From Actinospica robiniae DSM 44927 (lineage in GTDB: Bacteria; Actinomycetota; Actinomycetes; Streptomycetales; Catenulisporaceae), in the NCBI RefSeq assembly GCF_000504285.1, contig NZ_KI632511.1:4399372-4463371 (forward strand): a stretch of DNA of 64,000 bases, in the 5' to 3' direction. The position numbers and the translations under genes are program-made. Of this stretch, positions 15,931 through 51,185 are shown piece after piece. The notes under the pieces were generated by a model, which was given only the letters and a program-made list of their open reading frames with translations, did not search any database and had not been told where the DNA came from. The stretch's first letter is position 1, and the number at the start of each line of letters is the position of its first letter.

Positions 15931-16009
15931 CTGTGCGCCCGGAGCGGACGGCTCCGGGGTGGTACGTCTCAGGGCCGGCGGGCGGTGCGCTCCGGCGTCC
16001 GGTCCGGTC

Positions 16010-17203: not shown

Positions 17204-17236
17204 GCTCCACCCACTCCGCTCCGTCGAGCTGCTTTT

Positions 17237-17656: not shown

Positions 17657-17738
17657 CCACACCACAGCGTCACCGAAGGCGCGTCACAGCGAACGTCCGG
17701 ACCTTGTCGGCGCCGGACGCCGCTGGCATGATCGCCGA

Positions 17739-24844: not shown

Positions 24845-26467
24845 ATGACGGTGAGCACGGAGGAATTCGACTACGTGGTCGTCGGCGGCGGGACGGCCGG
24901 GTGCGTCCTGGCCGCCCGGCTGTCCGAGGACCCGGACGTCACGGTGCTGCTGCTGGAGGACGGCCCCGCGGACACGCTGCCCACGCTCCGGGACGCGCGT
25001 CTGGGGTCGGTGCTCTCCCTGTGGGGCGACCCGGCGGTCTCCCGGGTGCACCGGAGCGTGCCCCAGCCCGGGCTGCTCGGCCGGGAGATCGACATCCCCC
25101 AGGGCCGGGTGCTGGGCGGCGGCAGTTCCATCAATGCCCTGCTCCACGTGTGGGGCCACCCGCTCGACTACGCGGACTGGGACCCGCAGGGCAAGGAGGG
25201 CTGGTCGTACCCGGATCTGCTGCCCTACTTCCAGCGCGCCGAGACCTACCGGCCCGGGGCCGTACCGGTTCGGGCCGGAGCCGGACCCGCCGGGGACGCG
25301 CGCGGCCTGAAGGGCCCGTTGGGCGTGGTCGGACTCCAAGCCCCGGCGGAGGTCTCCACCGCCTTCATCCGCGCGGTCGCCGGGTGGCCCTCGGCCGGCG
25401 GCGTGGTCGCGGATCACAACACGAAGCCGGATCCCGGATCCGGCTTCTACTACCAGTCCGCGCGGGAGCCGGGCGGGGTGCAGCGTTCGAGCGCCGCGTC
25501 CGGCTACCTCGCCCCGGCCTCCGGCCGGCCGAATCTGAGCGTGCGCACGGCGGCGCGGGCCACCCGGCTGCTCTTCGAGGCGGACCGCGCAGCCGAGGTC
25601 GAGTACGCGCACGAGCCGGGCCGGGCGGAGTCGCGGATACTGCGCCGGACCAGAGCGCGGCGAGAGATCCTGGTGTGCTGCGGCGCCCTCGCCACGCCGG
25701 GGCTGCTCGCCCGTTCCGGAGTCGGGCCGGCCGAGCAACTGCGAGAGTTGGGCTTGCCCGTGCTCGCCGACCTGCCCGGCGTGGGCCAAGGCCTGCAGGA
25801 CCACCTTTTGTTCGGAGTCGGCTACGGCAGCACGCGTGCCCTGCCCGATTCCGAGCTGCTGGCGGAGGCAGGGCTCTTCCTGCGCAGCGGGATCGGCGAC
25901 GCGGGCGGCCCGCCGGATCTGCAGTTCTTCTTCGGTCCGGTCCAGTTCGTGCCGGACGCGTACCGGGCGGACGGTCCGGGCTTCACCCTGGCTCCGGTGC
26001 TGCTGCACCCGGCCAGCCGCGGCGAGGTGCGGATCGCGAGCGCCGACCCCTTCGCCGACCCGATCGTCGATCCGCGGTATCTCTCGGCCGAGCAGGATCT
26101 CGCCGTGCTGGTGCGCGGCCTGGAGCTGGCCCGGGAGCTGATCGCCCGGCCCGAGCTCGACGGCTTCCGTGGCCCGGAGCTCGCGCCCGGGACCGGCGTC
26201 GTCGCCAGGGCCGGGCTCGAGGACTACGTCCGCCGCTACGCGTCCACGGTGTGGCACCCGGTGGGCACCGCCCGGATGGGGGCCGACCCGGACGCCGCGG
26301 ACGAGCCGGCCGTGGTCGGGTTCGACCTCGCCGTCCACGGTGTGCGCGGGTTGCGGGTGGTCGACGCCTCGGTCATGCCGTCGCTGCCGAGCGGCAACAC
26401 CAACGCGGCCACCGTCGCGATCGCGGAGAGGGCCGCCGCGCTCATCCGCGGCACGCACGGCGCCTAG
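24845..26467 (+). CDS. GMC-family FAD-dependent oxidoreductase 1
   Basis: 540 residues. GMC enzymes oxidise alcohols or related groups with FAD. Seen: dinucleotide-binding FDYVVVGGGTAGCVLAARLSE (9-29), GMC signature GRVLGGGSSINALLHVWGHP, second signature GALATPGLLARSGVG, and C-terminal active-site motifs HPVGTARMG (His471) and SGNTNAATV (Asn518), the usual His-Asn pair. Size and motifs resemble choline dehydrogenase-like enzymes. GGAGGGG near 24830 serves as the ribosome-binding site. It follows the two Nif11-like genes and precedes a second GMC enzyme with a different catalytic pair. Confidence 0.93.
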   Translation: MTVSTEEFDYVVVGGGTAGCVLAARLSEDPDVTVLLLEDGPADTLPTLRDARLGSVLSLWGDPAVSRVHRSVPQPGLLGREIDIPQGRVLGGGSSINALLHVWGHPLDYADWDPQGKEGWSYPDLLPYFQRAETYRPGAVPVRAGAGPAGDARGLKGPLGVVGLQAPAEVSTAFIRAVAGWPSAGGVVADHNTKPDPGSGFYYQSAREPGGVQRSSAASGYLAPASGRPNLSVRTAARATRLLFEADRAAEVEYAHEPGRAESRILRRTRARREILVCCGALATPGLLARSGVGPAEQLRELGLPVLADLPGVGQGLQDHLLFGVGYGSTRALPDSELLAEAGLFLRSGIGDAGGPPDLQFFFGPVQFVPDAYRADGPGFTLAPVLLHPASRGEVRIASADPFADPIVDPRYLSAEQDLAVLVRGLELARELIARPELDGFRGPELAPGTGVVARAGLEDYVRRYASTVWHPVGTARMGADPDAADEPAVVGFDLAVHGVRGLRVVDASVMPSLPSGNTNAATVAIAERAAALIRGTHGA

Positions 26468-26498
26468 TGCTCCCACCGACGTCCAGAAGGGTACACAC

Positions 26499-28061
26499 AT
26501 GAGCGACCACTACGATTTCGTGATCGTGGGCGGCGGCGCGGCCGGGCTGGTGCTGGCCAACCGCCTGTCCGCGGACGATCAGGCCCGCGTGCTGGTGCTC
26601 GAGGCCGGCCCGGACGAGTACACCGACGTCCACCGCGATCCCGAGCGCTGGGCCCAGGTTTCGCTGAGCTCGGGCGACTGGGCCTACCTCTCCGTGCCGC
26701 AGGCCGAGACCTACCAGGACCGGGTCTACCTCGCCGCCGGCAAGGTGCTCGGCGGCTCCTCCACCATCAACCACCTGATCCACATGCAGGCCTGGGACGC
26801 CGACTTCGACGCCTGGGCGTACCAGGGCGCGGCCGGCTGGTCGGCGCAGGACGTGCGGCCCTACTTCGAGGGCATCGTGGAGTCCGGCGGGGGCCCGCTG
26901 CCCAGCCTGGACGCCGGCCAGGCCGGAAACCCGCTCTCCCAGGCCTTCATCGACGCCTGCGTCGAGCTCGGCTACCCGCGCTTCTCCGACTACAACACCG
27001 GGGAGAGCGGCGTCGGCTGGCACCGGCAGAACATCAAGAACGGCATGCGGCACACGGTGCGGGCCGGCTACTTCGATCCGGTGCGCTCGCGGCCGAATCT
27101 CACCGTGCTCGACCGGGCGACGGCATCCCGGCTGCTGTTCGAGGGCAAGCGCTGCGTCGGCGTCGAATACCTGCGCGACGGGGCGGTGCACCAGGTCGCC
27201 GCGGACACCGAGGTGATCCTGAGCGCCGGTGCGATCGAGTCGCCGAAGCTGCTGGAGCTCTCCGGAGTGGGCGCCGCGGACCAGCTGGCGCGGCTCGGCG
27301 TGCCCACGGTGCTCGACCTGCCCGGCGTGGGCGAGGCCTTCCAGACCCAGCCCTTGGTGATCGGTCCGAGCGGCTACATGGACCGGCCCGGGCCGAACGT
27401 CGGAACGGCGAACGAGCCGGTGCTGTTCTGGAATTCCGCACCGGGTCTGCCCGCGCCCGACATGGAGCTGTGGTTCCTGCCCCGGGCCCCGTGGGGGGAC
27501 ACGCTGCTCAAGACCCTGATCGAGTGGAAGAACACCGGTGGCGGCGCCATCAACGTGACCGAGCCCGCGTACATCGACCCGCACGTAGTGCTGCTGCTCG
27601 GTGCCGTCGTGCGCCCGCTCTCGCGCGGTTCGGTGCACGCGGTGTCCACCGACGCGACGGCCGCGCCGGCCGTGGACCCGGCCTACTACCGCGAGCCGGG
27701 AGATCTGGACCTGGCCGTGCGGATCGCCGAACTCGGCCGCGAGGTGCTCGCGCAGGCGCCGCTGGCGAAGGGCTGGGGCCTGGTCGAGGCCAGCCCCGGA
27801 CCGGGTCTCGTGGGCAGCGGCGGGCTGCGCGAGTGGGTGCGCCGCAACACAGGGTCCTTCCACCACTACAGCAGCACCTGCCGGATGGGGGTGGACGGCG
27901 ACGCGGTGGTGGACCTGCGGCTGCGGGTGCGCGGCGCCGAAGGGCTGCGCGTGGTCGACGCCTCGGTGATGCCGAGCATGCCCTCCGGCCACACGCACGC
28001 CACGACGGTGATGATCGCCGAGCGCGCGGCCGAGTTCATCGCCGAGGACCACGCGCGCTGA
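26499..28061 (+). CDS. GMC-family FAD-dependent oxidoreductase 2
   Basis: 520 residues from ATG 26499 (AGAAGG 9 bases upstream). FAD site YDFVIVGGGAAGLVLANRLS, GMC signature GKVLGGSSTINHLIHMQAWD, AIESPKLLELSGVG, and active-site segments FHHYSSTCRMG (His455/456) and SGHTHATTV (His498), i.e. a His-His rather than His-Asn pair. Only distantly similar to GMC 1, so the two probably act on different substrates or successive steps. The reading frame extends far upstream inside GMC 1, but the homology begins at the chosen start. Confidence 0.93.
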   Translation: MSDHYDFVIVGGGAAGLVLANRLSADDQARVLVLEAGPDEYTDVHRDPERWAQVSLSSGDWAYLSVPQAETYQDRVYLAAGKVLGGSSTINHLIHMQAWDADFDAWAYQGAAGWSAQDVRPYFEGIVESGGGPLPSLDAGQAGNPLSQAFIDACVELGYPRFSDYNTGESGVGWHRQNIKNGMRHTVRAGYFDPVRSRPNLTVLDRATASRLLFEGKRCVGVEYLRDGAVHQVAADTEVILSAGAIESPKLLELSGVGAADQLARLGVPTVLDLPGVGEAFQTQPLVIGPSGYMDRPGPNVGTANEPVLFWNSAPGLPAPDMELWFLPRAPWGDTLLKTLIEWKNTGGGAINVTEPAYIDPHVVLLLGAVVRPLSRGSVHAVSTDATAAPAVDPAYYREPGDLDLAVRIAELGREVLAQAPLAKGWGLVEASPGPGLVGSGGLREWVRRNTGSFHHYSSTCRMGVDGDAVVDLRLRVRGAEGLRVVDASVMPSMPSGHTHATTVMIAERAAEFIAEDHAR

Positions 28062-28160
28062 ATAAGGGCTCTACAGGGTCCGGATCCGGATCCGCCCCTT
28101 CCGCCGCGGGCCGCCGCCCGCGGCGGGTTCCCCTTGCCGGGAACAGATTCGTTCCAGAGC

Positions 28161-28205
28161 CGAACAGACCGAACAGACCGAGCAGACCGAACAGACCGAG
28201 CAGTC
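28161..28205. repeat. Five 9-bp tandem repeats in the EthD-gene leader
   Basis: CGAACAGAC, CGAACAGAC, CGAGCAGAC, CGAACAGAC, CGAGCAGTC in direct tandem, ending 22 bp before the ATG of the EthD gene. They are not within any credible coding frame. Copy number may vary between strains. Confidence 0.75.
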
Positions 28206-28227
28206 TCGACGAGAGAAGGAGAACCCC

Positions 28228-28926
28228 ATGATCCATCAGTTCATTCTGGCCGCGCCGAAGCCCGGGCTGAGCGCCGAGGCGTTCCAGGAGTACTGGCGCA
28301 CGGTGCACGCCGTGCAGTACGCCTCCCGCATTCCGCAGATCCGCAAGTACCTGATCGACACCCGGGTGGCGAACCCGGTGGAGCTCGGCGAACCGCAGCT
28401 GCCGCACCAGGGCATCGCCGAGATCTGGCTCGCGAACGGGGAGGAGCAGCTGGCGTCGCTGCAGACCGAGGAGTTCCTGCAGGGCGCGCGGCTGGACGAG
28501 CCGAAGTGGGCCGCGTTCTGGCTCACCCTGGTGCTCGACACCACCGCCCACGAGATCCTGCCGGCCGCCGCCGCGCGCACCGACCAGGTCGTGTGGACCG
28601 TGCTGCACAAGCGCAAGCCCGGGCTGGCGCTGGCCGAGTACCGGGAGCGCTCCCTGCAGGAGTACGCCCCGGCCGTGGCCAAGCTGCCCGGTCTGCGGCG
28701 CTACCAGCACAACCACGTGAACGACGGCGCCTACGTCTTCGGCGAGTCCTCGTTCGACAGCGTCGAGCAGCTCTGGTTCGACGATGTGGAGCAGCTGGTC
28801 GCGGCCGTGCGCTCGCCGGAGTACTCGGAGTCGGTGGAAGCCGCCCGCGCGGCGCTGCTCGACCCGCGCTACACCTTCTCGCTGACCGGGCGTCAGCACT
28901 GGATCATCGGCCCCGAGGCCCGCTGA
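28228..28926 (+). CDS. Tandem EthD-domain protein
   Basis: 232 residues. Two ferredoxin-like dimeric alpha/beta-barrel halves: residues 1-100 (MIHQFILAAPKPGLSAEAFQEYWRTVHA...) and 118-220 (VVWTVLHKRKPGLALAEYRERSL...), the first with the EthD pattern KPGLSxEAFxxYWRxxHA. Family members are cofactor-free monooxygenases, cyclases or helper proteins in natural-product and ether-degradation pathways. Start ATG 28228 with AGAAGGAG upstream. The 166-bp gap after GMC 2 contains a 9-bp tandem repeat and is followed by no obvious new promoter. Probably the last gene of the Nif11-GMC operon, ended by the hairpin at 28961. Confidence 0.85.
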   Translation: MIHQFILAAPKPGLSAEAFQEYWRTVHAVQYASRIPQIRKYLIDTRVANPVELGEPQLPHQGIAEIWLANGEEQLASLQTEEFLQGARLDEPKWAAFWLTLVLDTTAHEILPAAAARTDQVVWTVLHKRKPGLALAEYRERSLQEYAPAVAKLPGLRRYQHNHVNDGAYVFGESSFDSVEQLWFDDVEQLVAAVRSPEYSESVEAARAALLDPRYTFSLTGRQHWIIGPEAR

Positions 28927-36608: not shown

Positions 36609-37445
36609 ATGCCCCGCAAGAACGCCGTCCGCGTACTGGTGGTCCTGTCCGAATACGGATACTGGGGGGAGGAGCTGGTCGGCCCGCTCGCGGCCTTCGA
36701 CGCCCGCGGCTACGAGTCCGTGTTCGTCACCCCGACCGGCAAGCAGCCGCGCGCCCTGCCGCCGAGCATGGACCCCGGCTACATCGACCCGCCGCTCGGC
36801 CGCAGCGTCACCACCCAGGAGGTGGCCGAGCGCACCCGCGTGCTGGACGAGTCCGACCGGCTGACCAACCCGCTGAACCTGCAGGCCTGGATGCCCGAGC
36901 GGCCCTACACCTCGGATCCCGACTACCTGCGCCGGCTCGAGCGCTACCACCGGGCCGTGGCGACGGTGGCCGAGGAGCTCGAGCAGTACGACGCGCTGCT
37001 GATCGTCGGCGGCAGCGGCCCGCTGGTGGACCTGGCCAACAACGAGCGGCTGCACGAGCTGATCCTCGCCTTCGTCCGGGCCGAGAAGCCGGTGGCCGCC
37101 GAGTGCTACGGCGTCGCCGCGCTCGCCTTCGCCCGGGACTGGGAGGACCGTCGCAGCATCCTGTGGGGCAAGCGGGTGACCGGCCACTGCAAGGAGTACG
37201 ACTACAAGGACGGCACCGGCTTCCTCGGCACCGACTTCGTGATGGGCCCGCCGCCGTACCCGCTGGAGTACATCCTGCGCGACGCCGCCGGCCCGGACGG
37301 GGCCTTCGTCGGCAACTTCGGCAAGGAGACCTCAGTGATCGTCGACTTCCCGTTCATCACCGGGCGCTCGACCCCCGACTCGTTCCTCACCGGCGAGAAG
37401 ATCGTCGAGGTCCTCGAGGACGGCCTGCGCCGCTTCGGCTGGTAG
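36609..37445 (+). CDS. DJ-1/PfpI superfamily protein (large, Hsp31-like form)
   Basis: 278 residues from ATG 36609 (AAGGAG 7 bases upstream). VRVLVVLSEYGYWGEELVGPL begins the fold with the conserved Glu, and the nucleophile elbow is AAECYGVAAL (Cys166). Larger than the simple 190-residue members. Family roles include glyoxalase/deglycase, chaperone, amidotransferase-like and hydratase activities, so the reaction is open. It opens the ten-gene operon; a second DJ-1 domain is fused to an epimerase-like domain two genes later. In the cyanobacterial icfG cluster a DJ-1-type gene occupies the same relative place (from memory). Confidence 0.88.
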   Translation: MPRKNAVRVLVVLSEYGYWGEELVGPLAAFDARGYESVFVTPTGKQPRALPPSMDPGYIDPPLGRSVTTQEVAERTRVLDESDRLTNPLNLQAWMPERPYTSDPDYLRRLERYHRAVATVAEELEQYDALLIVGGSGPLVDLANNERLHELILAFVRAEKPVAAECYGVAALAFARDWEDRRSILWGKRVTGHCKEYDYKDGTGFLGTDFVMGPPPYPLEYILRDAAGPDGAFVGNFGKETSVIVDFPFITGRSTPDSFLTGEKIVEVLEDGLRRFGW

Positions 37446-37482
37446 GGCGCCGTCACCACCGCGGATTGGTAGGAGAGTAGCA

Positions 37483-39144
37483 ATGGCCGTCTCAGGGAAC
37501 CGCGCCGTGGTCGAGCAGTTGCTCGCCGACGGCTTCACTCACATGTTCGGCAACCCGGGCACGGTCGAGCAGGGCCTGCTCGACGTGCTCGGCGACTATC
37601 CGGATCTGCACTACGTCCTCGGTCTGCAGGAGACCGTGTGCGTCGCCATGGCCGACGGCTACGCCCGGGCCACGGGCGGCCCGGCCCTGGTCCAACTGCA
37701 CACCGGGGTGGGGCTCGGCAACGGCGTCGGGATGCTCTACCAGGCGCTGCGCGGGCACAGCCCGCTCGTGGTGGTGGCCGGCGACGCCGGCGTGCGCTAC
37801 GAGGCGCTGGACGCGCAGATGGCGGTGGATCTGGTGGCCATGGCCGAGCCGGTGACCAAGTACGCCGTGCGGGTCACCGACCCCGGCTCGGTTCTCAGAG
37901 TCCTGCGCCGCGCGGTGCGGATCGCGATGACCCCGCCGCGCGGACCGGTCTTCGTCGCGCTTCCGGCCGACGTGCTGGACGCCGACAACACCGAGGCGGT
38001 CGTGCCCACGGTGTTCCCGCACACCGAGTCCGTCCCCGCGCCGCACCTGCTCGCGGAGGCGACAAGGCTGCTGTCCGCGGCCCGGCGGCCGGTGATCCTG
38101 ATCGGCGACGGCGTGGCCGCGGCCGAAGCGCAGCAGCAGGTGGCCCGGGTCGCCGAGCTGTGGGGCGCCCCGGTGTGGGGGGTGGACTCCGGCGAGCTGA
38201 ACATGCCGGGCCGCCACCCGCTCTACCGCGGGCAGCTCGGCCACATGTTCGGCGAGGCGGGCGCGCAGAAGCTGGCCGGCGCGGACGCGGTGCTCGTCGT
38301 CGGCACCTACCTGTTCCCCGACGTCTTCCCGTTGCTGGAGTCCCCGTTCGCCCCCGGCACGCCGATCGTGCACCTGGACGCCGACGCGCTGCAGATCGCG
38401 AAGAACCACCCGGTCTCGCTCGGACTGGTCGGGGACCCGGCGGCGGGCCTGGACGCGCTCGCCGCGGAGCTGGAGCGCAAGCTCGGGCCGTCCGAGCGGT
38501 ACCTGGCCGCGGAGCGCCTCGAGGCGGCCCGCGAGCAGGCCGCCGCGCAGGCCGCGACGCGGGTGCCGGACACCCTGGCCGACCGGTTCTTCGCCGCCGT
38601 CGCCCAGGCCGCGCCGCCCGATCTGATGCTCTTCGACGAGGCGTTGACCGCCTCGGACTCGCTGGGCCGGCACCTGCCGCCGCCGAACCTGGCGCGGCAC
38701 TGGTTCCAGACCCGCGGCGGCTCGCTCGGCGTCGGCGTGCCCGGCGCCCTGGGGATCAAGCTGGCCCATCCCGGCAAGACCGTCCTCGGGGTGACCGGGG
38801 ACGGCGGCGTGATGTACACGATCCAGGCGCTGTCCGCGGCCGCGCGCTACCGCATCGGCGCCAAGTTCGTGGTCTGCAACAACAGCAGGTACCGGCTGCT
38901 CGACTACAACCTCGAGCAGTACCGGGCCGGGCTTGACCTCGGCCCGCGGCCCGCCCCGGAGGCCTTCGACCTGTCCGCGCCGCCGATCGACTTCCTCGGC
39001 CTGGCCGAGGCGCAGGGCGTGTCCGCGGCGGTGGTGCGCCGGCGCGAGGACATCGCGCCCGCGGTCGAGCGGATGTTCGCGGACGACCGGCCGTTCCTGG
39101 TCGACCTGCTGACCGAACCCGTCGGGGAGGGCGGTGCGCGATGA
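37483..39144 (+). CDS. Thiamine-diphosphate enzyme (benzoylformate decarboxylase / acetolactate synthase-like)
   Basis: 553 residues with the three-domain ThDP layout. Pyrimidine domain: THMFGNPGTVEQGLLDVL and catalytic Glu50 in GLQETVCVAMADGYARATG. Middle domain about 185-330. PP domain ends with the ThDP/Mg motif GDGGVMYTIQAL...CNN (GDG and NN about 25 residues apart). FGNPGT and the active-site neighbourhood resemble benzoylformate decarboxylase, but the substrate cannot be inferred safely; decarboxylation or ligation of a 2-oxo acid is expected. Overlaps the next gene by 4 bp (ATGA). Confidence 0.9.
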   Translation: MAVSGNRAVVEQLLADGFTHMFGNPGTVEQGLLDVLGDYPDLHYVLGLQETVCVAMADGYARATGGPALVQLHTGVGLGNGVGMLYQALRGHSPLVVVAGDAGVRYEALDAQMAVDLVAMAEPVTKYAVRVTDPGSVLRVLRRAVRIAMTPPRGPVFVALPADVLDADNTEAVVPTVFPHTESVPAPHLLAEATRLLSAARRPVILIGDGVAAAEAQQQVARVAELWGAPVWGVDSGELNMPGRHPLYRGQLGHMFGEAGAQKLAGADAVLVVGTYLFPDVFPLLESPFAPGTPIVHLDADALQIAKNHPVSLGLVGDPAAGLDALAAELERKLGPSERYLAAERLEAAREQAAAQAATRVPDTLADRFFAAVAQAAPPDLMLFDEALTASDSLGRHLPPPNLARHWFQTRGGSLGVGVPGALGIKLAHPGKTVLGVTGDGGVMYTIQALSAAARYRIGAKFVVCNNSRYRLLDYNLEQYRAGLDLGPRPAPEAFDLSAPPIDFLGLAEAQGVSAAVVRRREDIAPAVERMFADDRPFLVDLLTEPVGEGGAR

Positions 39145-41666
39145 GCGCGAGGCTGTCCGGGGCGCGTATCGGCGTCCTGATGGAAAGCGACTTCTACGAG
39201 CCGGAGATCTTCTACTACCAGCGCAGGTTCGCCGAGGAGGGCGCCGAAGTGCGCTTCCTCTCCCGGCTGTGGGGGCAGCGCAGCCTGACCTTCCACGGCC
39301 ACGAGTTCCAGGCGCCGTTCACGGTGACCGGCTCGGTGGAGCAGATCTCCGACGCGGAGCTCGACGGCTACCACGCCCTGATCGTGCCGGCCGGCATGGT
39401 GGCCGACCGCCTGCGCTACACCGAGGACGTCGACGAGCTCTCCCCCGCCGCGGACCTGCTGCGCCGCGCCTTCGCCCGCCCCGGCCTCGTCAAGGGCGTG
39501 ATCTGCCACGGCCTGTGGCTGCTCTCCTCCGCGCCCTACCTGGTGCGGGGCCGGAAGGTGGTCTGCCACAACAACCTGATCGGCGACGTGCGCAACATGG
39601 GCGCGAACTACGTCGACCAGGACGTCGTGGTCGACGGCGATCTGGTGACGGCGCGGACCGGGGACGACTGCGCCGCCTTCGCGCACACGGTGATCACCAT
39701 GGTGGAGGATCGCCTCTTCCGACCGGAGCCGGCCGCTCCGGCGGCGGCCGTCGTCGCTCCGTCCGTCACCGCCGCGCCCGCTGCGCTCCCCGCGCGGCCG
39801 CTCGACCCGACCCCGGTCGACCGGGGCGGCGTCACCCCGTACTCCGATCTGATCACCGGGTCGGTGGGCCGCTACGACCGCGACGCGGAGACCTTCACCC
39901 TCACCACCTCGGAGGGCCGCGAGTACGCCGTGCGGCTCGACTCGGAGCCGCGGGCCAGACTGCTGCGCAATCTGGACGAGCCGGAGCGCGACCTGACCAC
40001 CCCGCTCGACCGGTTGCTCCGACCCGGGCGGCCGGCGCTCGTGCACGGCCTGTTCTACCCGGAAGACGAGGGAACGCGCTTCGACGCCAAGGACATCCTG
40101 CTGCCGGGCACGGAGGCCGAGGAGTACCGGTTCGAAGAGCCCGACTGGTGGGTGCGGCAGCTCGAGGCCATCGCACGGTTCTACCGCCGGGCGCAGTTCG
40201 GCGACGGGCCGATCGACTTCCGCGACTACCGCACCGCCATCCGGCTCGGCGGCGACAAGGGCGCCAGCCACGTCCAGGAGACCGACACCATCTCACGGCT
40301 CGTCTACGGCATGGCCACCGCCTATCTGCTGACAGGCAAGGACGAATACCTTGAGGTGGCCGAGAAGGGCACCGCGTACCTGCGCGACCACATGCGCTTC
40401 GTGGACACCGACGAGGACGTCGTCTACTGGTTCCACGGCATCCGGGTCGACGGGGCCGCCGAACGGCAGCTGCTGACCTCGGAGTTCGCCGACGACTACC
40501 GCGCCGTGCCGATGTACGAGCAGATATACGCCCTGGCCGGCCCGGTGCAGACCTACCGGATCACCGGCGACCGGCGCATCCGCTCCGACGTCGAGGCCAC
40601 GCTGCGCCTGTTCGAGCGCTTCTTCGCCGACCCGGTGCACGGCGGCTACTTCTCGCACGTCGATCCGATCCTGCTGCGCCCCGACCACTCCTCGCTGGGC
40701 GAGAACGCGTCGCGCAAGAACTGGAACTCGGTCGGAGACCACGCCCCCGCCTACCTGATCAACTATTACCTGGCCACCGGCGATCCGCGGCTGGCCGCGA
40801 TGCTGGAGGACACCCAGGACACCGTCGCCGCCCGCTTCCCCGACGCCGGCAGCGCCTTCGTCCAGGAACGCTTCCACGCCGACTGGACGCCGGACGCCGG
40901 ACAGTCCTGGCAGCGCGACCGGGCGGTGGTCGGGCACAACCTGAAGATCGCCTGGAACCTCACCCGGGTCGGCGCGCTCCGGCCGAAGCGGGACTACGCG
41001 GAACTGGCCGAGCGCATCGGCCACACCATGCCCGAGCTCGGATCGGACCGGCAGCGCGGCGGCTGGTACGACGTCGTCGAGCGGCAGCGGCGGCCCGGGG
41101 AGCGCCGGCACCGCTTCGCCTGGCACGACCGCAAGGCCTGGTGGCAGCAGGAGCAGGCGATCCTGGCCTACCTGATCATGCACGGCACGACCGGCGAACC
41201 CCGGTTCCTGGCCGAGGCGCGCCGCGCGCAGAGCTTCTACAACGCCTTCTTCCTCGACCACGACGAGGGCGGGGTCTACTTCAACGTGGCCGCGGCCGGA
41301 CTGCCCTATCTGCTCGGCACCGAGCGGCTCAAGGGCAGCCACTCGATGAGCATGTACCACTCGGCCGAGCTGTGTTACCTGGCCGCGGTCTACAACAACC
41401 TGCTCATCGCCGGCAAACCCATGACCCTGCACTTCAAGCCGGAGGCCGCCGCCCTGCCCGGGCGCGTGCTGCGGGTCTCCCCCGACCTGCTGCCGGCCGG
41501 CCGGGTGCGGATAGGCCACGTCACCGTGGACGGGCGCGAGCACACGGACTTCGACGCGCAGGCGTTGACGGTGCACCTGCCCGACGTGCCCGGCCGGGTC
41601 AAGGTCAAGGTCCGCATCGACCCGGTGGGCACCGCGGCCGGCGAGCGGCGGAGCGGCGAGCGATGA
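39141..41666 (+). CDS. Fusion of DJ-1/PfpI domain with AGE-like (alpha/alpha)6-barrel domain
   Basis: 841 residues. Residues 1-195 are a second DJ-1/PfpI domain (RIGVLMESDFYEPEIFYY with the conserved Glu; GVICHGLWLL with Cys122). An Ala/Pro/Val linker (about 197-225) leads to a beta-rich insert (230-330). The region about 335-770 resembles N-acylglucosamine 2-epimerase / cellobiose-epimerase barrels (TDTISRLVYGMATAYLLTG, LFERFFADPVHGGYFSHVD, WSAlike KIAWNLTRV, HDRKAWWQQEQAILAYLI, DHDEGGVYFN). A small C-terminal beta domain follows. A sugar epimerase or isomerase is suggested. The fusion is unusual; in Synechocystis the equivalent genes are, as I recall, separate neighbours. Confidence 0.85.
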   Translation: MSARLSGARIGVLMESDFYEPEIFYYQRRFAEEGAEVRFLSRLWGQRSLTFHGHEFQAPFTVTGSVEQISDAELDGYHALIVPAGMVADRLRYTEDVDELSPAADLLRRAFARPGLVKGVICHGLWLLSSAPYLVRGRKVVCHNNLIGDVRNMGANYVDQDVVVDGDLVTARTGDDCAAFAHTVITMVEDRLFRPEPAAPAAAVVAPSVTAAPAALPARPLDPTPVDRGGVTPYSDLITGSVGRYDRDAETFTLTTSEGREYAVRLDSEPRARLLRNLDEPERDLTTPLDRLLRPGRPALVHGLFYPEDEGTRFDAKDILLPGTEAEEYRFEEPDWWVRQLEAIARFYRRAQFGDGPIDFRDYRTAIRLGGDKGASHVQETDTISRLVYGMATAYLLTGKDEYLEVAEKGTAYLRDHMRFVDTDEDVVYWFHGIRVDGAAERQLLTSEFADDYRAVPMYEQIYALAGPVQTYRITGDRRIRSDVEATLRLFERFFADPVHGGYFSHVDPILLRPDHSSLGENASRKNWNSVGDHAPAYLINYYLATGDPRLAAMLEDTQDTVAARFPDAGSAFVQERFHADWTPDAGQSWQRDRAVVGHNLKIAWNLTRVGALRPKRDYAELAERIGHTMPELGSDRQRGGWYDVVERQRRPGERRHRFAWHDRKAWWQQEQAILAYLIMHGTTGEPRFLAEARRAQSFYNAFFLDHDEGGVYFNVAAAGLPYLLGTERLKGSHSMSMYHSAELCYLAAVYNNLLIAGKPMTLHFKPEAAALPGRVLRVSPDLLPAGRVRIGHVTVDGREHTDFDAQALTVHLPDVPGRVKVKVRIDPVGTAAGERRSGER

Positions 41667-41985
41667 AGGCCGGACTCGGTTCTGTCGCCGTCGAGGAGCG
41701 GGACGGCGCCGCCGTCGCGTACCTCGACGGCGAGATCACCAGCGCCAACGCGCGCGAGATCGGAGAGTGGGTGCTCGCCCAGGTGGACGGCCACCACACG
41801 CTGACCGTCGAGGTCTCCGGAGTCTCCTACCTCTCCAGCGCGGGCCTTCGGGTGCTGGTGCTGCTGCACCGGCGCGCGGAGGCGGCCGGGGTGAAGGTGC
41901 TGCTGGCCGGCCTCAGCCCGCGGCTGCGCTTCATGATGCGGGCCGTGGGCTTTCTCGAGCTGTTCACCGAGGCCGAGGAGACCCC

Positions 41986-41989
<4 letters not shown>
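41663..41989 (+). CDS. STAS-domain anti-sigma-factor antagonist 1
   Basis: 108 residues. SpoIIAA/RsbV-like: VAYLDGEITSANAREIGEWV, LTVEVSGVSYLSSAGLRVLVLLHRRAE, and VKVLLAGLSPRLRFMMRAVGFLELF. The phosphorylatable Ser is in SYLSSAGLR. In partner switching the unphosphorylated form releases a sigma factor or other target from an RsbW-type kinase; the SpoIIE-like phosphatase downstream would activate it. Overlaps both neighbours by 4 bp. It lies between the epimerase fusion and glgX, as slr1856 does in the icfG cluster (from memory). Confidence 0.92.
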
Positions 41990-44142
<2,153 letters not shown>

Positions 44143-44149
44143 GGCAACC

Positions 44150-44470
44150 ATGTCCTTCGCCTCCGCCCTCACCGTCACCGGCGACGTCGCGACCCTCCGC
44201 CTGACCGGCGAGCTCGACGCGCTGACCGCCCCCGAGTTCCAGCGCAGCATCGAGCAGGCGGCCGCGGTCGCCGTGCGCCGGCTGGTGATCTCCCTGCACG
44301 AGCTCGAATACATCTCGAGCGCCGGGCTGCGCTGTCTGATCTTCGCCCGGCAGACCATCCACGAAGGGGTGACCCTGGCGCTGGCCGGGGCCCGGCCCGC
44401 CGTGGCGCGCACCATCAGGATGGCCGGCGTGGACCGCGGCATCGACGTGACGGAGCTGGCCGATGTCTAG
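44150..44470 (+). CDS. STAS-domain anti-sigma-factor antagonist 2
   Basis: 106 residues, AAGGAG about 12 bases upstream. LRLTGELDALTAPEFQRSIEQA, LVISLHELEYISSAGLRCLIFARQ and VTLALAGARPAVARTIRMAGVDRGI show the full STAS fold, with the phospho-acceptor Ser in EYISSAGLR. A second antagonist in the same operon suggests two parallel switches or two targets of one kinase/phosphatase pair. Overlaps the ATPase gene by 8 bp. Confidence 0.92.
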   Translation: MSFASALTVTGDVATLRLTGELDALTAPEFQRSIEQAAAVAVRRLVISLHELEYISSAGLRCLIFARQTIHEGVTLALAGARPAVARTIRMAGVDRGIDVTELADV

Positions 44471-44972
44471 TGCGACGGTCTTCCAGCCGCTCACCGCCGA
44501 GGACGAGTTCGAGCCCCGCGCCGAGACGGCACCGGACGGCCCGTGGCAGCTCGGTGTCCTGCACGTGCGCGCCTCGCTCGACACGCTCGACGCCGTCGCC
44601 GACTACGTGCGCAGCGTCGCGTACCGGGCCGGCCTCGGCAACTGCGCGCGGCTGCGGCTGCGGCTCGCGGTGGAGGAGCTGGCCGCGAACTCGATCCTGC
44701 ACGGATACGGCAACAACTGCGGTTGGCTGGTGCTCGCCGGCGGCGGCGACGGACGCGGCAACGCCTGCATCCTGCTGCGCGACTCGGCTCTCGCCTTCGA
44801 TCCGTCCCAGGCCCCGTCCCCGGCCGACCTGCACCTGCCGGTGGAGCAGCGGGCCATCGGCGGACTCGGCATCCATCTGGCGCTGGCCAGTGTGGACGAG
44901 TACCGCTACGAACGCCGGAACGGGGAGAACCACAGCACCCTGACCGTGCGGTGGCGCCCCGGGGAGGACTGA
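44463..44972 (+). CDS. RsbW-like serine kinase / anti-sigma ATPase (HATPase_c)
   Basis: 169 residues. GHKL ATPase fold: RLRLAVEELAANSILHGYG (N-box with Glu and Asn), DSALAFDP in the D-box position (usual DxGxxFDP; the Gly is not apparent), and GGLGIHLALASVDEYRYER as the G2 box. Such proteins phosphorylate STAS antagonists and sequester sigma factors. The N-terminal 30 residues are a divergent extension. It is flanked by its probable substrate (STAS 2) and its opposing phosphatase. No sigma factor gene lies in this operon, so the output target is unknown. Confidence 0.88.
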   Translation: MSSATVFQPLTAEDEFEPRAETAPDGPWQLGVLHVRASLDTLDAVADYVRSVAYRAGLGNCARLRLRLAVEELAANSILHGYGNNCGWLVLAGGGDGRGNACILLRDSALAFDPSQAPSPADLHLPVEQRAIGGLGIHLALASVDEYRYERRNGENHSTLTVRWRPGED

Positions 44973-44978
44973 CCATCC

Positions 44979-45872
44979 ATGAGTGACATCGGCGCCTTTC
45001 AGGGCCGGACGGCCGAGGACCTCGACCGGTTCGCGGACGTGGGACGGGAACTGCTGATCGGCCGCCAGATCCAGGCCGGGTTCCTGCCGGAGCAGCTGCC
45101 GGTCCTTCCCGGCTGGGAGATCGAAGTCGAGTTCCGACCCGCGCGGGAGGTGGCGGGGGACTTCTACGACGTCTTCGAACTGCCGGGCAGCCGGCGCACG
45201 GCGCTGATCGTCGCGGACGTGTGCGACAAGGGCGTGGGCGCGGCGCTGTTCATGGCGCTGATCCGCACCATGCTCCGGCACACCGCGCAGAACAGCGGGC
45301 TGCGCCCGCTGGGCACCCTCGGCTGGGACCCGCACAGCGGGCGGCTGCCCACGGTGGGCGAGACCCCGCTGCTGCACGCCGTCACCAGCACCAACCGCTA
45401 CCTCACCCAGGTGCACCACCGGCAGGGCTACTTCGCCACCCTCTTCTTCGGCATCCTCGACCCCGAGACCGGAGTGCTCAGCTACATCAACGGCGGACAC
45501 AATCCGCCGCTGCTGTTCGCCGAGGACGGCGCCCTGCGGGCCGAGCTCGAACCCACCGGCCCGGCCGTCGGGGTGCTGCCCGACCCGGGCTTCGAGGTGG
45601 GCCGGATCCGGATCGAGCCGGGCGAGTTCCTGCTGGCCTTCACCGACGGGGTCACCGAGAGCCGGGCGAGCAGCGGCGAGTTCTTCGGCGACGAGCGCCT
45701 GACCGGCCTCGCCACCGTGCCCTGCGAACGCGCCCAGGAGCTGACCGGCCGCATCATGGCCGCCATCGAGCACCACTCCGCGGCCGGCGAGCAGTACGAC
45801 GACATCACCATGCTGGTGCTCCGCCGCGACCGGGAAAATCAGCCTACTGATAGGAATGGTCGGCAGACATGA
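44979..45872 (+). CDS. SpoIIE/RsbU-type PP2C phosphatase (IcfG-like)
   Basis: 297 residues. A short N-terminal helix (LDRFADVGRELLIGRQIQAGFLPEQLP, the RsbU-type linker) precedes the PP2C domain: EVAGDFYDVFEL with metal Asp, LIVADVCDKGVGAALFMALIRTMLR, GYFATLFFGILDPETGVLSYINGGHNPPLL, LLAFTDGVTESR and YDDITMLVLRR with further metal-binding Asp residues. It should dephosphorylate one or both STAS proteins. No extra sensor domain such as GAF or PAS is present, so its input may come from partner proteins. ATGA overlap with the next gene. Confidence 0.93.
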   Translation: MSDIGAFQGRTAEDLDRFADVGRELLIGRQIQAGFLPEQLPVLPGWEIEVEFRPAREVAGDFYDVFELPGSRRTALIVADVCDKGVGAALFMALIRTMLRHTAQNSGLRPLGTLGWDPHSGRLPTVGETPLLHAVTSTNRYLTQVHHRQGYFATLFFGILDPETGVLSYINGGHNPPLLFAEDGALRAELEPTGPAVGVLPDPGFEVGRIRIEPGEFLLAFTDGVTESRASSGEFFGDERLTGLATVPCERAQELTGRIMAAIEHHSAAGEQYDDITMLVLRRDRENQPTDRNGRQT

Positions 45873-46633
45873 CACACATCGTGAGCCTCTTCTCGTACCG
45901 CGGCGGCACCGGCCGGTCCACCACGGCGGTCAACGTGGCCCGGCTGCTGGCGGCGGACGGCGCGCGCGTCGCCGTCGTGGACACCGCGCTGCAGTACCCC
46001 GCGCTGCACACGCTCTTCGGCATCAACGACCTGCCCGACTGGATCTCGTTCACCGACTACCTGCTCGGCCGCTGCACCCTCGGCGACGTGGTCCAGGCGG
46101 TCCCGCTGCGGGAGGCCGAGCCGACGGCCGGCGAGGGCACCCTGTTCGCGCTGCCCGCCTGCAACCGGCCCGACAAGATCGAGGGCATCCAGTCGCAGGG
46201 CTATGACGTCGGGCTGCTCGGCGAGGCCTTCAAGGAGCTCTCCGAGAGCCTGGCGCTCGACTGGCTGTTCCTGGACACCAGCGCCGGCATGACCAACGAG
46301 ACCGCCGTCGCCCTCGCCGCGAGCGAGACGGTGCTCACCCTCGCCCGGGCCGACCAGGTGGACCTGGTCAGCGCCCCCACGGCGGCGGGCATGGTGCGCC
46401 GGCTCAGCCGGGCCAGGACGCTGCTCGCGCTCTCCGCGGCCGGCCCGGACGACCGGGTGCCGACCGAGGAGTTCGCCCGGGCCTACGAGATGCCGGTGGT
46501 CGCCGTGCTGCCCGCCGCGCCCGCGGTGGCCGAGGTCTCCGGCCGCTCGCTGTTCGTCGAGGCCTACCCGGAGCACCGGCTCACCGCGCGCTACCGGGAC
46601 CTCGCCGACGCCCTCGCGGGGGCCGATCGATGA
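45869..46633 (+). CDS. ParA/MinD-like P-loop protein with altered Walker A
   Basis: 254 residues. IVSLFSYRGGTGRSTTAVNVARLLAADG corresponds to the deviant Walker A of ParA/MinD (normally KGGxGK[S/T]), but both lysines are Arg here (Arg11, Arg16). The switch I equivalent VVDTALQYPALHTLFG lacks the usual second Asp (cyanobacterial relatives read VDTDIQSP, from memory). Walker B-like LDWLFLDTSAGM is retained. It may bind nucleotide weakly or act as a scaffold. Coupled by 4-bp overlaps to the phosphatase and nucleotidyltransferase genes, which places it in the signalling-sugar operon rather than with chromosome partition genes. Confidence 0.82.
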   Translation: MTHIVSLFSYRGGTGRSTTAVNVARLLAADGARVAVVDTALQYPALHTLFGINDLPDWISFTDYLLGRCTLGDVVQAVPLREAEPTAGEGTLFALPACNRPDKIEGIQSQGYDVGLLGEAFKELSESLALDWLFLDTSAGMTNETAVALAASETVLTLARADQVDLVSAPTAAGMVRRLSRARTLLALSAAGPDDRVPTEEFARAYEMPVVAVLPAAPAVAEVSGRSLFVEAYPEHRLTARYRDLADALAGADR

Positions 46634-47958
46634 CCGCCCGGCTCTCCGCGCCCGTCCACGCGATCGCGCTGGCCGGCGGCCGCGGCATCCGCGCGCTCCC
46701 GCTGACCCTGATCTCCGCCGACTACATGCGCAGCAAAGCGGCCATCAGCCTGCTGGGCAAGCCGCTGGTGGAGTGGGTGGTGCGGTTCCTGCGCAACCAG
46801 GGCGTCACCGACTACTACGTGCTGGCCAACGGCCGGGAGAACCGCACCCAGATCCAGGAGATCCTGCGCGACGGGCGCCGCCTCGGCATCGAGGTGCGCT
46901 ACTCCCGCGCCCGCTTCGACCGCTACAACACCGGGTCCGGCGAGGCCACGCTGCGGTGCCTCGAGCACTGGAGCCTCGAGGGCACCGCGGTGGTCTTCCC
47001 GACCGACTCGGTCTTCGACTTCGATCTCGCCCCGATGCTCGCGCGGCACCTGGAGTCCGGCGCCACCGTCACCGTGGGCACCGTGCCGCGCAGCGCGGCC
47101 GAGGCCGCGGGCAAGTACGGGGTGCTGGTGCCGGACGGGGACGGACGCATCGAGAGCTTCGCCGAGAAGCCCCCGCTGGACGAGGCCCGGCGCCTCGCCC
47201 AGGGCGGCCCGCTGCACACCAGCGCGGGCATCTACATGATCGACTGCGTCCGGCTGCGGGCGGCGGCGCGGGAGCCGGAACTGCGCGCACTGGCGGCCGA
47301 GGAGCTCGACTGGGGCGGCCAGCTGGTGCCCTACCTCGTCGCCCACGGCCACCGCGTGCAGGCGTTCTCCATCGGCAGCTTCGGCGACCTCGGCAACTCC
47401 CGCGACTATCTCGCCACCATGCGCACCCTGCTCGCCGGCGGGTACCCGACCCTCGACGAGCTGATCGAACCGCCGGTGAACACGCCGGGCGGCTCCCGGG
47501 TGCATCCCAGTACCCTGAAGAAGATCGACCCGGCCACCGGGCTGACCCTGGAGGCCATGGTGGAGGAGGGGCTGGTGCGCATCGGCCCCCGCGTGCGGAT
47601 CGGGCGGGACGTGGAGATCGGCCTCGGCGTCGACCTCGAGGACTGCGACGTCGGCGACAACGTGGACCTCGGCGAAGGGGTCTGGATGCGCGGCGTGGCC
47701 TGCGGGGACCACGCGATCGTCGGCCCCTGGGCGCAGGTGGTCGACACGGTCCTCGGCACCAGCGCCTCGGTGGGCTCGGAACGCGGCGCGCGGACCGTGC
47801 TGGACGGCCACTGCGTGCTCGGCGACGAGGCGCGGGTGGAGGCGGGCGTCCGGCTCACCGGCGTGGAGGTCTTCCCCCGGCTCACCGTGCACGCCGGCCG
47901 CGGGGTGCCCGCGGGCGCCCGGCTGACCGCGACCGGGTTCCAGCTCCGCACCGCCTGA
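46630..47958 (+). CDS. Sugar-phosphate nucleotidyltransferase-like protein with left-handed beta-helix
   Basis: 442 residues. The N-terminal half has the nucleotidyltransferase fold: AIALAGGRGIRALPLT (16-25), where the usual GGxGTR is GGRGIR (Thr to Ile20); then TDYYVLANGRENRTQIQEIL, VVFPTDSVFDFDL and the sugar-site segment YGVLVPDGDGRIESFAEKP. The C-terminal third holds hexapeptide repeats (RIGPRVRIGRDVEIGLGVDL onward), as in GlgC or GmhB-type enzymes. The family resemblance is clear, but loss of the signature Thr leaves activity and substrate uncertain. Last gene of the operon, followed at once by a strong hairpin. Confidence 0.82.
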   Translation: MTARLSAPVHAIALAGGRGIRALPLTLISADYMRSKAAISLLGKPLVEWVVRFLRNQGVTDYYVLANGRENRTQIQEILRDGRRLGIEVRYSRARFDRYNTGSGEATLRCLEHWSLEGTAVVFPTDSVFDFDLAPMLARHLESGATVTVGTVPRSAAEAAGKYGVLVPDGDGRIESFAEKPPLDEARRLAQGGPLHTSAGIYMIDCVRLRAAAREPELRALAAEELDWGGQLVPYLVAHGHRVQAFSIGSFGDLGNSRDYLATMRTLLAGGYPTLDELIEPPVNTPGGSRVHPSTLKKIDPATGLTLEAMVEEGLVRIGPRVRIGRDVEIGLGVDLEDCDVGDNVDLGEGVWMRGVACGDHAIVGPWAQVVDTVLGTSASVGSERGARTVLDGHCVLGDEARVEAGVRLTGVEVFPRLTVHAGRGVPAGARLTATGFQLRTA

Positions 47959-48021
47959 CCCTGTACCTCTCCGCGGCACGCGCCACTTCCGGAGCGCGCG
48001 TGCCGCGGAGAGGTACAGGGT
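47958..48021 (+). terminator. Strong hairpin ending the icfG-like operon
   Basis: 26-bp perfect stem (ACCCTGTACCTCTCCGCGGC at its base; arms 47958-47983 and 47996-48021), 12-base loop, starting at the stop codon of the nucleotidyltransferase gene. No T-run. Confidence 0.88.
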
Positions 48022-48138
48022 CTACCGTATGGTGATGAACGATTCCCCGGACCTGACGTAGTACGCACCGCGCATTGAAACCCGGGGGCCGAAGTACTTG
48101 GCTATAGACATGGGAATGCGGGTGGCAGGAGCAAGCAG

Positions 48139-49627: not shown

Positions 49628-50824
49628 TCAGCGCACGAGCAAGGGCTCGGCGGCCGCGGAATACAGGGTGCGAAAGCCCTGCGCCGCGGAGGCGAGCGTC
49701 ACGTGGTGGTGCCAGCCCCGGTAGGAGCGGCCCTCGAAGTCCGCGAGGCCGCCCTCGGCGCGCATCGCGTTGAGCGTCGACGCGGCCCGGGAACGAGCCC
49801 GCCACAGCGAGATCGGCTCGTTCCAGGAGTTGCACTCCAGGTTCGAGATCCAGTAGCGCACCGGCCGGCTCCGGCCGATCGGCCACTGGCTCAGCAGGAC
49901 CCGGTGGCTCTCGTTGGACGGGCGCGCGAGGCCGGGACCGCCGGACAGCGCGCGCGGCCGCTGGGCCAGCGAGAGGACCATGAACTGGGACTGGCGGCGC
50001 ATCCCGTCCTTGGGATCGGACCAGGAGACGGTGGTGCGGGCGTTGCGCTCGGCCGCGGCGAGCACCATCTGCAGCGCCCTCGGCTCGCGCCGTTGCGGGT
50101 CCCGTCCGGTGCCGTGCACCGGATAGGCCGGCGAGACCTGGCACAGATAGCCGAGCCCGCGCGCCTCCAGGGCCTGCAGCAGCGCCTCCGGGTTCGGGTC
50201 GTGCTGCAAGTCCGCGAGCACCGGGAGGGTCGGCAGACCCCAGTCCTCGCTCACCTCGTCGAGCTGCTCGAGGGTGAGCTGGGAGCGGGAACTCGGCCGC
50301 ACGCTCGACGGCAGGTGCGCCTTGCGCCGCAGCTCCTCGTCCGTGCCCCAGTGCGGCGGCAGCACCAGCCGCCAGTTGATCGGCAGTGAGGAGTCCTCGG
50401 ACACCACGTTCAGGGACAGGGCGATCTGGCAGTTGAGCACCTGGCTGAGGCTGGGGCTGTACTGCGAGGCCACGCCGACCGAGACCTGTCCGTGCTTGGG
50501 GAAGACGACCTCGTCGACCGACCAGGCCAGCAGCTGCTGCGTCTTGCTGAACAGCTGGGCCAGGTACTGCCGGACCGGGACGTGGTCCCACGGGCTCTGG
50601 TTCAGGAACTGCTGGAGCCGCTGGACGGTCGACGCGCCCGCGCAATGCTCCGAAATGGCTACCACGCTCTTGCGGCCGGGAACTTGAAGCAGCCCCCGTA
50701 AATACAGTTCACCCCAGGTCCGCTGATCGGACCTCGAGAAATCGGCGAACAGGGTGCTGCAGAACCGCTTGAGCTCTTCTTCCTGGGTCGGATGGATCGG
50801 GGTCATGATGTCCCGAGCGTTCAC
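49628..50824 (-). CDS. IS701-like transposase homologue, probably domesticated or inactive
   Basis: 398 residues from GTG 50824 (GGAGGGGAG upstream). Related to the IS701/SRSO17 transposases: LLAWSVDEVVFPKHGQVSVGVASQY with Asp104, LPINWRLVLPPHW, TLPVLADLQHDPN with Asp205, and FEGRSYRGWHHHVTLAS near the end. The segment before FEGRS, which in active members reads roughly R-[IV]-E-x-[DE]-Y-x-E-[LM]-K and supplies the third acidic residue, is LWRARSRAASTLNAMRAEGG here. I found no terminal inverted repeats. Similar lone copies sit beside PKS genes in actinomycetes as I recall, so a non-transposition role is possible. Confidence 0.78.
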   Translation of the reverse strand: MNARDIMTPIHPTQEEELKRFCSTLFADFSRSDQRTWGELYLRGLLQVPGRKSVVAISEHCAGASTVQRLQQFLNQSPWDHVPVRQYLAQLFSKTQQLLAWSVDEVVFPKHGQVSVGVASQYSPSLSQVLNCQIALSLNVVSEDSSLPINWRLVLPPHWGTDEELRRKAHLPSSVRPSSRSQLTLEQLDEVSEDWGLPTLPVLADLQHDPNPEALLQALEARGLGYLCQVSPAYPVHGTGRDPQRREPRALQMVLAAAERNARTTVSWSDPKDGMRRQSQFMVLSLAQRPRALSGGPGLARPSNESHRVLLSQWPIGRSRPVRYWISNLECNSWNEPISLWRARSRAASTLNAMRAEGGLADFEGRSYRGWHHHVTLASAAQGFRTLYSAAAEPLLVR

Positions 50825-51128
50825 AACGCGCTCCCCTCCGTGTGGTTCGAAAGAACCGGCGGACATCTCCATCGTGACTCCGCCGTATCGGTCGAACCAG
50901 CCAGCCCTAATGGGAGTACTCGGAGTCCTTGCTTCGCGCGCCGGTGCCCGCTCCGGTGTGCGGTCTGACGAACCCTCCGGTATTAGGGATGTGGTATATA
51001 AGGAAACGACGACGGAATCGCGCGACCGACGGGGCCGGGGCGGCGTCGGCGGGGTTGAGCGGGCTCGGCGGATCCTGACCGGGACCCGGCGCTGCCGCAC
51101 GCGCGCCCGGACCGAGGACGAGGGAGGC
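50825..51128. promoter_or_regulatory. Divergent intergenic region upstream of the MmyB regulator
   Basis: 304 bp with promoters expected for the transposase-like gene (-) and for the uORF/regulator (+). GGGATGTGGTATATAAGG near 50988 is a rare AT-rich island and a candidate promoter element. The remainder is GC-rich with no clear motif. Confidence 0.4.
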
Positions 51129-51185
51129 GTGCCGATGCGCCGAAAATGCCGACCGGCGCAGGTCGGGCTGCGGGTCCGCCGGTGA
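51129..51185 (+). CDS. Upstream ORF of 18 codons coupled to the regulator
   Basis: GTG 51129 (AGGGAGG directly upstream, but only 1-2 bases from the GTG; ATG 51135 in the same frame has ideal spacing) encodes VPMRRKCRPAQVGLRVRR, very basic. Its TGA overlaps the GTG start of the regulator (GTGA, 51182-51185). The regulator has no ribosome-binding site of its own in front of 51182, so translation through the small ORF is the simplest way to start it. Too short to prove by sequence alone. Confidence 0.45.
   Translation: MPMRRKCRPAQVGLRVRR

Follow-up and report, generated by a model that had tools for sequence, protein, structure and literature searches.

An icfG-type operon of Actinospica robiniae suggests a partner switch that may act directly on a sugar enzyme

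A link between the icfG operon of the cyanobacterium Synechocystis sp. PCC 6803 and carbon control has been known from the 1990s on; to our knowledge the only molecular output known for it so far is a sigma factor. Here we analysed an operon of this type in the actinomycete Actinospica robiniae DSM 44927, at positions 36609-47958 of a stretch of 64,000 nucleotides (GCF_000504285.1, contig NZ_KI632511.1, positions 4,399,372-4,463,371 of the forward strand), hereafter called the window. The best explanation as a whole, which we rate slightly better than even, is that the operon represents, in an actinomycete, a mobile cluster of alpha-glucan enzymes with a private partner switch, that the icfG operon is another member, and that its second STAS protein, STAS2, serves as a regulatory subunit of an AGE-like enzyme. 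The Synechocystis operon (slr1852-slr1862) is repressed by salt (PMC8670252). It contains the genes for an AGE protein (slr1855), a STAS protein (slr1856), the GlgX/isoamylase (slr1857), another STAS protein (slr1859), the PP2C phosphatase IcfG (slr1860) and a kinase (slr1861) (PMC8670252 and PMC12329169). The kinase phosphorylates both STAS proteins, and IcfG acts on Slr1856 and not on Slr1859 (PMC12329169).

The cluster shares with the Bacillus switches RsbV/RsbW/RsbU and SpoIIAA/SpoIIAB/SpoIIE the phospho-Ser motif in STAS, the N-box Glu and Asn of the HATPase kinase and a SpoIIE-type phosphatase, here with the metal Asp residues of a PP2C. It differs from them in that no sigma gene was found with it in the 138 stretches compared below and in that two STAS genes are placed around glgX. 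The SiaABCD system of Pseudomonas aeruginosa (also HsbA/HsbD and BgrV/BgrR) likewise has a phosphatase, a kinase and a small phospho-protein, which acts directly on an enzyme and not on a sigma factor, whereas its target is a diguanylate cyclase, the SiaC kind is described as DUF1987 and no partner-enzyme fusion appears in the passages of PMC8457831 consulted. GlgX of Streptomyces venezuelae is a debranching enzyme controlled after translation by c-di-GMP (PMC9530166). The window GlgX differs in that its closest solved relative is the plant isoamylase 1 (576 bits), ahead of the bacterial GlgX entries (432-521 bits).

The operon is a run of ten co-directional genes on the plus strand, read as open reading frames in the window, which has a G+C content of 71% and lies in a 9.9 Mb genome of a single contig. 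The first gene encodes DJ1a, a DJ-1/PfpI (ThiJ-like) protein (36609..37445; Pfam/NCBIfam and an ECYG motif), whose ATG at 36609 is preceded by AAGGAG, with an alternative GTG at 36540. It is followed by a thiamine diphosphate (ThDP)-dependent enzyme of the benzoylformate-decarboxylase/acetolactate-synthase class (37483..39144; Pfam/NCBIfam) and by DJ1b-AGE, in which an N-terminal DJ-1/PfpI domain with a CHG motif is fused to an AGE-like (alpha/alpha)6 enzyme (GlcNAc_2-epim; 39141..41666; by Pfam, the fold by proxy of the relative L145). Next come STAS1 in the slr1856 position (41663..41989; Pfam, motif and gene order), the isoamylase-1-like debranching enzyme GlgX (41986..44142; Pfam, TIGR02100 above cut-off) and STAS2 in the slr1859 position, of the type found in AGE fusions elsewhere (44150..44470; Pfam and STAS tree), both STAS proteins with the phosphosite motif SSAGL. 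An RsbW/SpoIIAB-type kinase (HATPase_c_2) in the slr1861 position (44463..44972) and a SpoIIE-type PP2C phosphatase in the icfG/slr1860 position (44979..45872) were assigned by Pfam and blastp. The last two genes, both named by Pfam/NCBIfam, encode a MinD/ParA-like ATPase with the P-loop GGTGRST (45869..46633) and an NDP-sugar pyrophosphorylase-like nucleotidyltransferase (NTP_transferase) with a hexapeptide-repeat C-terminus (46630..47958).

The earlier note on this DNA had named these genes in this order, and the sequence together with Pfam and NCBIfam bears this out. It had counted six 4-bp overlaps; the junctions give five, at ThDP/AGE (39141), AGE/STAS1 (41663), STAS1/GlgX (41986), PP2C/ParA-like (45869) and ParA-like/nucleotidyltransferase (46630). 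The single 8-bp overlap it mentioned is present between STAS2 and the kinase (44463-44470), and the gaps are below 40 bp as it stated, with 37 bp between DJ1a and the ThDP gene as the longest, 7 bp between GlgX and STAS2 and 6 bp between kinase and phosphatase. The strong terminal hairpin is also there: this 27-bp GC-rich element on the plus strand (47957..48022) folds with -66.8 kcal/mol (z = -11.7, equalled by 0 of 200 shuffles) and was absent from the terminator scan because it has no T run. The operon is real, and its gene order is more than chance since the same order occurs across several phyla.

The layout is of the icfG type, with STAS-GlgX-STAS flanked by the AGE gene on one side and by the kinase and phosphatase genes on the other. 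The window follows the Synechocystis gene-number order except for the last two genes, where the kinase precedes the phosphatase and not the reverse; the cyanobacterial copies L099, L151 and L154 end with STAS2-PP2C-kinase, as do the gene numbers slr1855-slr1861 (PMC8670252, PMC12329169). The product of slr1854 we take to be DJ-1-like. The window operon differs in its actinomycete host, in the fusion of DJ-1 to AGE and in the additional genes for DJ1a, the ThDP enzyme, the ParA-like protein and the nucleotidyltransferase. The earlier note had regarded the latter three as additions of this operon, which was rejected, as they occur in 82, 59 and 22 of the 138 stretches, respectively.

These 138 stretches comprise the window, 98 loci (L020-L117) and 39 further loci (L143-L181), annotated with custom-built profiles. 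The species-genome collection contains at least 545 relatives, and since the 80 most like the query were kept, the counts are weighted towards Streptomyces; one place is included twice, as L090 and as L181. STAS1 comes directly after AGE in 98 of the 138 stretches, with GlgX added in 96, STAS2 in 89 and a kinase within 2.5 kb in 84, the window included. This agrees with the recurrence in actinomycetes and cyanobacteria that the earlier note had foreseen. Of these 84, 78 have a phosphatase no more than 4.5 kb downstream; it is missing there in L023, L030, L116, L117, L159 and L160, and is found elsewhere in the stretch in L030, L116 and L117. The block AGE-STAS1-GlgX-STAS2-kinase was found in actinomycetes, cyanobacteria, Deinococcus, Runella and Accumulibacter, sometimes on plasmids. 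The AGE gene is sparse. It occurs in the host class in 6 of 296 genomes at E<=1e-30, the own genome included, and, at E<=1e-80 and with each centre genome included, in the phyla of cyanobacterium HT-58-2 (26 of 292 genomes), of Accumulibacter (4 of 398) and of a Chlorobiaceae bacterium (10 of 296). Plasmid-borne copies were found in Streptomyces, Deinococcus, Gemmobacter, Runella, Nostoc, Gloeothece and Gloeocapsopsis.

The switch proteins follow the enzymes. In the host genome no paralogue of the window kinase was found at E<=1e-3, and 40 PP2C-domain matches and twelve further STAS matches are present. Among the host paralogues compared by blastp, namely the best 11 for STAS, the best 11 for PP2C and the single one for GlgX, the top scores were 39 bits for STAS2, 97 for PP2C and 438 for GlgX. 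The cyanobacterial copies of L099, L110, L086 and L151 reached 85-92 bits with STAS2, 228-245 with PP2C, 800-829 with GlgX and 87-95 with the kinase. STAS1, STAS2, the fused STAS domains described below and the 11 own paralogues fell into four tree groups with 4 label changes, where the minimum is 3. Since the kinase, the phosphatase and STAS2 are nearer to most cyanobacterial copies than to own paralogues, the switch has travelled with the enzymes; judged by sequence likeness it belongs to the enzyme cluster and not to the host, and GlgX is of the cluster lineage as well. The idea that the best matches of the trio are the host's own switches was rejected by these scores, and best hits to unrelated sigma-B loci, the outcome by which the earlier note's proposal was to fall, were not seen for kinase, phosphatase or STAS2. 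Its kinship with the icfG cluster is thus supported by gene order and by the cyanobacterial scores, the PP2C of L113 being an exception and Synechocystis PCC 6803 itself being likened by gene names only. The kinase N-box Glu and Asn are kept in 98 of 98 sequences, and the first Asp of the PP2C motif DVCDKGVG in 90 of 92, the other two rows being gapped there; no sensor domain was found by Pfam in the window PP2C. In L177, on a distant AGE branch, AGE is followed by STAS and further on by a single frame of PP2C and HATPase, that is phosphatase and kinase fused, another STAS and GlgX.

In 17 of the 138 stretches the AGE frame continues into a STAS domain, in all 17 with a linker of 1-3 residues and with GlgX directly upstream. 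No kinase or phosphatase was found within 10 kb of these fusions (0 of 17; L156, L166 and L175 being truncated by a contig end or by the limits of the stretch). Plasmids of Gemmobacter, Gloeothece and two Nostoc carry such fusions, as do a Chlorobiaceae bacterium and cyanobacterium HT-58-2, in which the fused form (L145) occurs beside the switch form (L110); the eleven further cases are from genomes of the cyanobacterial and Chlorobi-containing phyla. In L094, GlgX and STAS2 share one open frame with an internal ATG. Trees were built from 108 AGE rows and 170 STAS rows with Streptomyces thinned. The fused STAS domains are spread over three groups of the AGE tree and form one clade of the STAS tree (support 95). 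Their mean identity is 28% to STAS2 and 18% to STAS1, and STAS1, which lies between AGE and GlgX, was therefore set aside as the fused type.

In the AlphaFold model of L145 (pLDDT 84, pTM 0.80, residues 486-515 below 50), an (alpha/alpha)6 barrel lies between N-terminal and C-terminal beta parts, and the chain ends in a STAS-like part. Its AGE part matches D-mannose isomerase (Z 35.6 over 378 residues, 2.6 A), and a Foldseek match to 1tid_B (114 columns, E 8.9e-7), by its title the SpoIIAA partner of SpoIIAB, presumably covers the STAS part. In the fused-form cyanobacterial clusters L025, L034, L037, L143 and L144, an FAD oxidoreductase and a cyclic-nucleotide-binding histidine-kinase-like protein often follow; the latter is perhaps the own sensor of these clusters, replacing the switch. 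No earlier account of an AGE~STAS fusion was found in the limited literature searched. Relative to that literature, the novelty lies in how widely the cluster is spread, in the test of co-inheritance, in the fusions and in the pattern at the phosphosite.

A block with its own switch, in which a STAS domain is in places welded to the enzyme, suggests that the switch acts on the enzyme itself, beyond gene reading alone. A fixed position, co-inheritance and fusions would all be expected of a STAS2-type protein that serves as subunit or docking partner for the AGE-like enzyme beside GlgX, and we infer that it docks there and that its phosphorylation tunes the enzyme. In the proposed mechanism, GlgX would free linear glucans, the AGE-like enzyme would act on a reducing sugar or glucan end, and STAS2 would be the docked regulatory subunit of the AGE-like enzyme, positioned near GlgX. 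The kinase would phosphorylate STAS1 and STAS2 and the PP2C would reset STAS1, so that the kinase/PP2C balance would set the amount of bound STAS2 and its state. STAS1 would then be the signalling STAS and STAS2 an effector with a long-lived phosphate, a division that fits the action of IcfG on Slr1856 and not on Slr1859 (PMC12329169). A sigma factor bound in trans by the kinase may be a second output.

The phosphosite column was assigned on the assumption that it corresponds to the phospho-serine of SpoIIAA. Free STAS proteins with a kinase within 10 kb have Ser at this site in 184 of 185 cases, whereas the 17 fused domains have Glu (6), Asp (3), Thr (4), Ser (3) or Ala (1). Read by eye, the eleven own-genome STAS paralogues have no acid in this column. 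Because fused STAS domains without a kinase often carry Glu or Asp, phosphorylated STAS2 may be the enzyme-compatible state, a more weakly drawn point; the acids could equally be insulation from other kinases. In its widest form, which we hold only tentatively and at somewhat less than even probability, the proposal is that a partner switch common to several phyla has a carbohydrate-enzyme output, with STAS2 as the phospho-regulated subunit of an AGE-like/GlgX pair, a subunit that some lineages made permanent by fusing it and by exchanging its phospho-serine for Glu or Asp, natural phosphomimics that reveal the active state.

Several observations weigh against direct enzyme control. Free STAS domains without a kinase within 10 kb mostly keep the Ser (16 of 21, one truncated by a contig end). 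Of the six Glu, five belong to one Chlorobi clade, and on the AGE tree only 2 changes are needed for the acidic phosphosite and eight for the non-Ser state. There are few independent losses, and the relatedness-controlled test had 8 independent pairs, with a mean of 3.4 for and 0.0 against (one against in few of the 200 pairings), too few for the phosphosite-loss test to reach 0.05. For these counts, the stretches L043, L076, L149, L156, L166 and L175 (the last three fused) lack a kinase and end less than 5 kb from AGE, and L085, L093 and L098 count as lacking one within 10 kb with a kinase further off. As the fused STAS resembles STAS2, no partner is left for STAS1. In L095, L113 and L116 the cluster PP2Cs score 72, 33 and 82 bits, below the best own paralogue, and 107 of the 138 stretches are without a further glucan gene of the five kinds sought below. 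In SiaC/SiaD phosphorylation prevents binding, the opposite polarity to that proposed here (PMC8457831). Finally, Synechocystis Slr1861, in the kinase position, binds SigC and phosphorylates Ssr1600, which is encoded elsewhere (PMC12329169). The earlier note's claim that the switch controls a sugar branch directly has gained indirect support from the AGE~STAS and GlgX~STAS2 fusions and stays conditional; on balance we lean somewhat towards direct enzyme control.

A first alternative, possible but in our estimate less than even, concerns the pathway: the role would not be in glycogen but in an oxidative or secondary sugar pathway with DJ-1, the ThDP enzyme, EthD, GMC, VOC and NTF2-like proteins as its core. 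These neighbours are frequent (DJ1a in 88, VOC in 50, GMC in 49, NTF2-like in 47 and EthD in 35 of the 138 stretches, beside the ThDP count given above) and point to an additional sugar-derived step. The Cys and Tyr of the DJ1a ECYG motif are kept in 85 of 85 relatives, and the DJ-1 cysteine is kept in these 85 as well as in 126 of 126 of the second DJ-1 set. The ThDP enzyme, whose best model is benzoylformate-decarboxylase with a score below the model cut-off, keeps its catalytic Glu in 80 of 80 and GDG in 79 of 80. Two GMC oxidoreductase genes and an EthD gene (24845..28923, plus strand) lie 7.7 kb upstream of the operon and are, by neighbourhood comparison with L080, L084 and L089, where they stand close before DJ1a, possibly a detached part of the set. 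A divergent branch (L036, L168) has AGE, DJ1b, DJ1a and the ThDP enzyme without STAS.

What speaks for alpha-glucan against such a pathway is GlgX, which is present in 128 of the 138 stretches and whose catalytic GH13 Asp/Glu/Asp is intact in the window and kept in 121 of 121 aligned sequences. GlgE, GlgB, TreS, maltokinase or GlgA lies within 12 kb in 31 of the 138, which supports an alpha-glucan role, and GlgE/GlgB/maltokinase blocks flank the set in many Streptomyces; none of these five was seen within 12 kb in the window itself. The AGE-like enzyme shares the (alpha/alpha)6 fold with the AGE, cellobiose 2-epimerase and mannose isomerase family (Z 28-36 to solved members, measured on the L145 model as a stand-in for the window protein) and differs by extra N- and C-terminal beta parts. 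It keeps GHNLK in 138 of 138 (Leu to Tyr in 3) where the solved 8h1k and 8bry have GHNSE and GHAIE. The Glu of the GHxxE motif of solved epimerases is replaced by an invariant Lys, and the enzyme is therefore called AGE-like and not an epimerase.

A second alternative, which we regard as unlikely, takes the fused STAS as a structural add-on or relic, in which the phosphosite drifts after kinase loss and acids there do no more than prevent cross-talk with other kinases; nothing about enzyme contact would then follow from the free switch. It agrees with the Thr, Ala and Ser at the fused phosphosite, with the single clade of fused domains, which may be one event with later drift, and with L035, which lies inside a fused clade of the AGE tree and has lost its STAS domain. 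It does not account well for a domain kept in 17 stretches of three AGE-tree groups with so constant a linker, nor for free STAS proteins that stay beside the enzymes in 18 stretches without a kinase within 10 kb (some cut by contig ends).

Equally doubtful is an ordinary sigma-regulating partner switch with its sigma factor encoded elsewhere and the sugar enzymes as passengers or regulon targets. The binding of SigC by Slr1861 and its STAS partner Ssr1600 encoded elsewhere favour it (PMC12329169), and ten genes of the host genome match Sigma70_r3 and could serve as targets in trans. The nearest of these is about 113 kb from the cluster, and no sigma-70 match was found in the 138 stretches with a profile of the ten own-genome region-3 sigma factors (ECF-type sigma factors are outside this profile, and its control was the same ten training sequences), in agreement with the earlier note, which had seen no sigma gene nearby. 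This absence beside fixed enzyme neighbours speaks against the alternative, as do the fusion of STAS to AGE or GlgX in 18 stretches and the switch genes, which follow the enzymes across phyla and not the host's own switches.

Other genes were noted on the way. A DDE_5 transposase-like gene (49628-51439), just downstream of the operon's aldehyde-dehydrogenase neighbour, fits a mobile history, and a single-module polyketide synthase (KS-AT-ACP) is encoded nearby at 52209-55508. A SUFU-domain protein is encoded at 17259-18377 of the window; this family is known mainly from animals. On a Nostoc conjugative plasmid, L036 has two Nif11-like leader-peptide precursor genes (17146-17806) within its divergent AGE/DJ-1/ThDP/GMC cluster. 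On a Streptomyces plasmid, L033 has a fusion of a nucleotidyltransferase with a phosphoglucomutase/phosphomannomutase (13839-16340) in the expected place of GlgX and a STAS without the phosphosite Ser.

In conclusion, a second output of the icfG-type switch becomes concretely testable, as the block of enzymes and switch is mobile and found far beyond cyanobacteria and as its STAS domain is joined to the enzyme in stretches that lack the kinase. If the STAS protein indeed binds and tunes the AGE-like enzyme, partner switching would join the post-translational control of polysaccharides, beside the action of c-di-GMP on GlgX in Streptomyces (PMC9530166).

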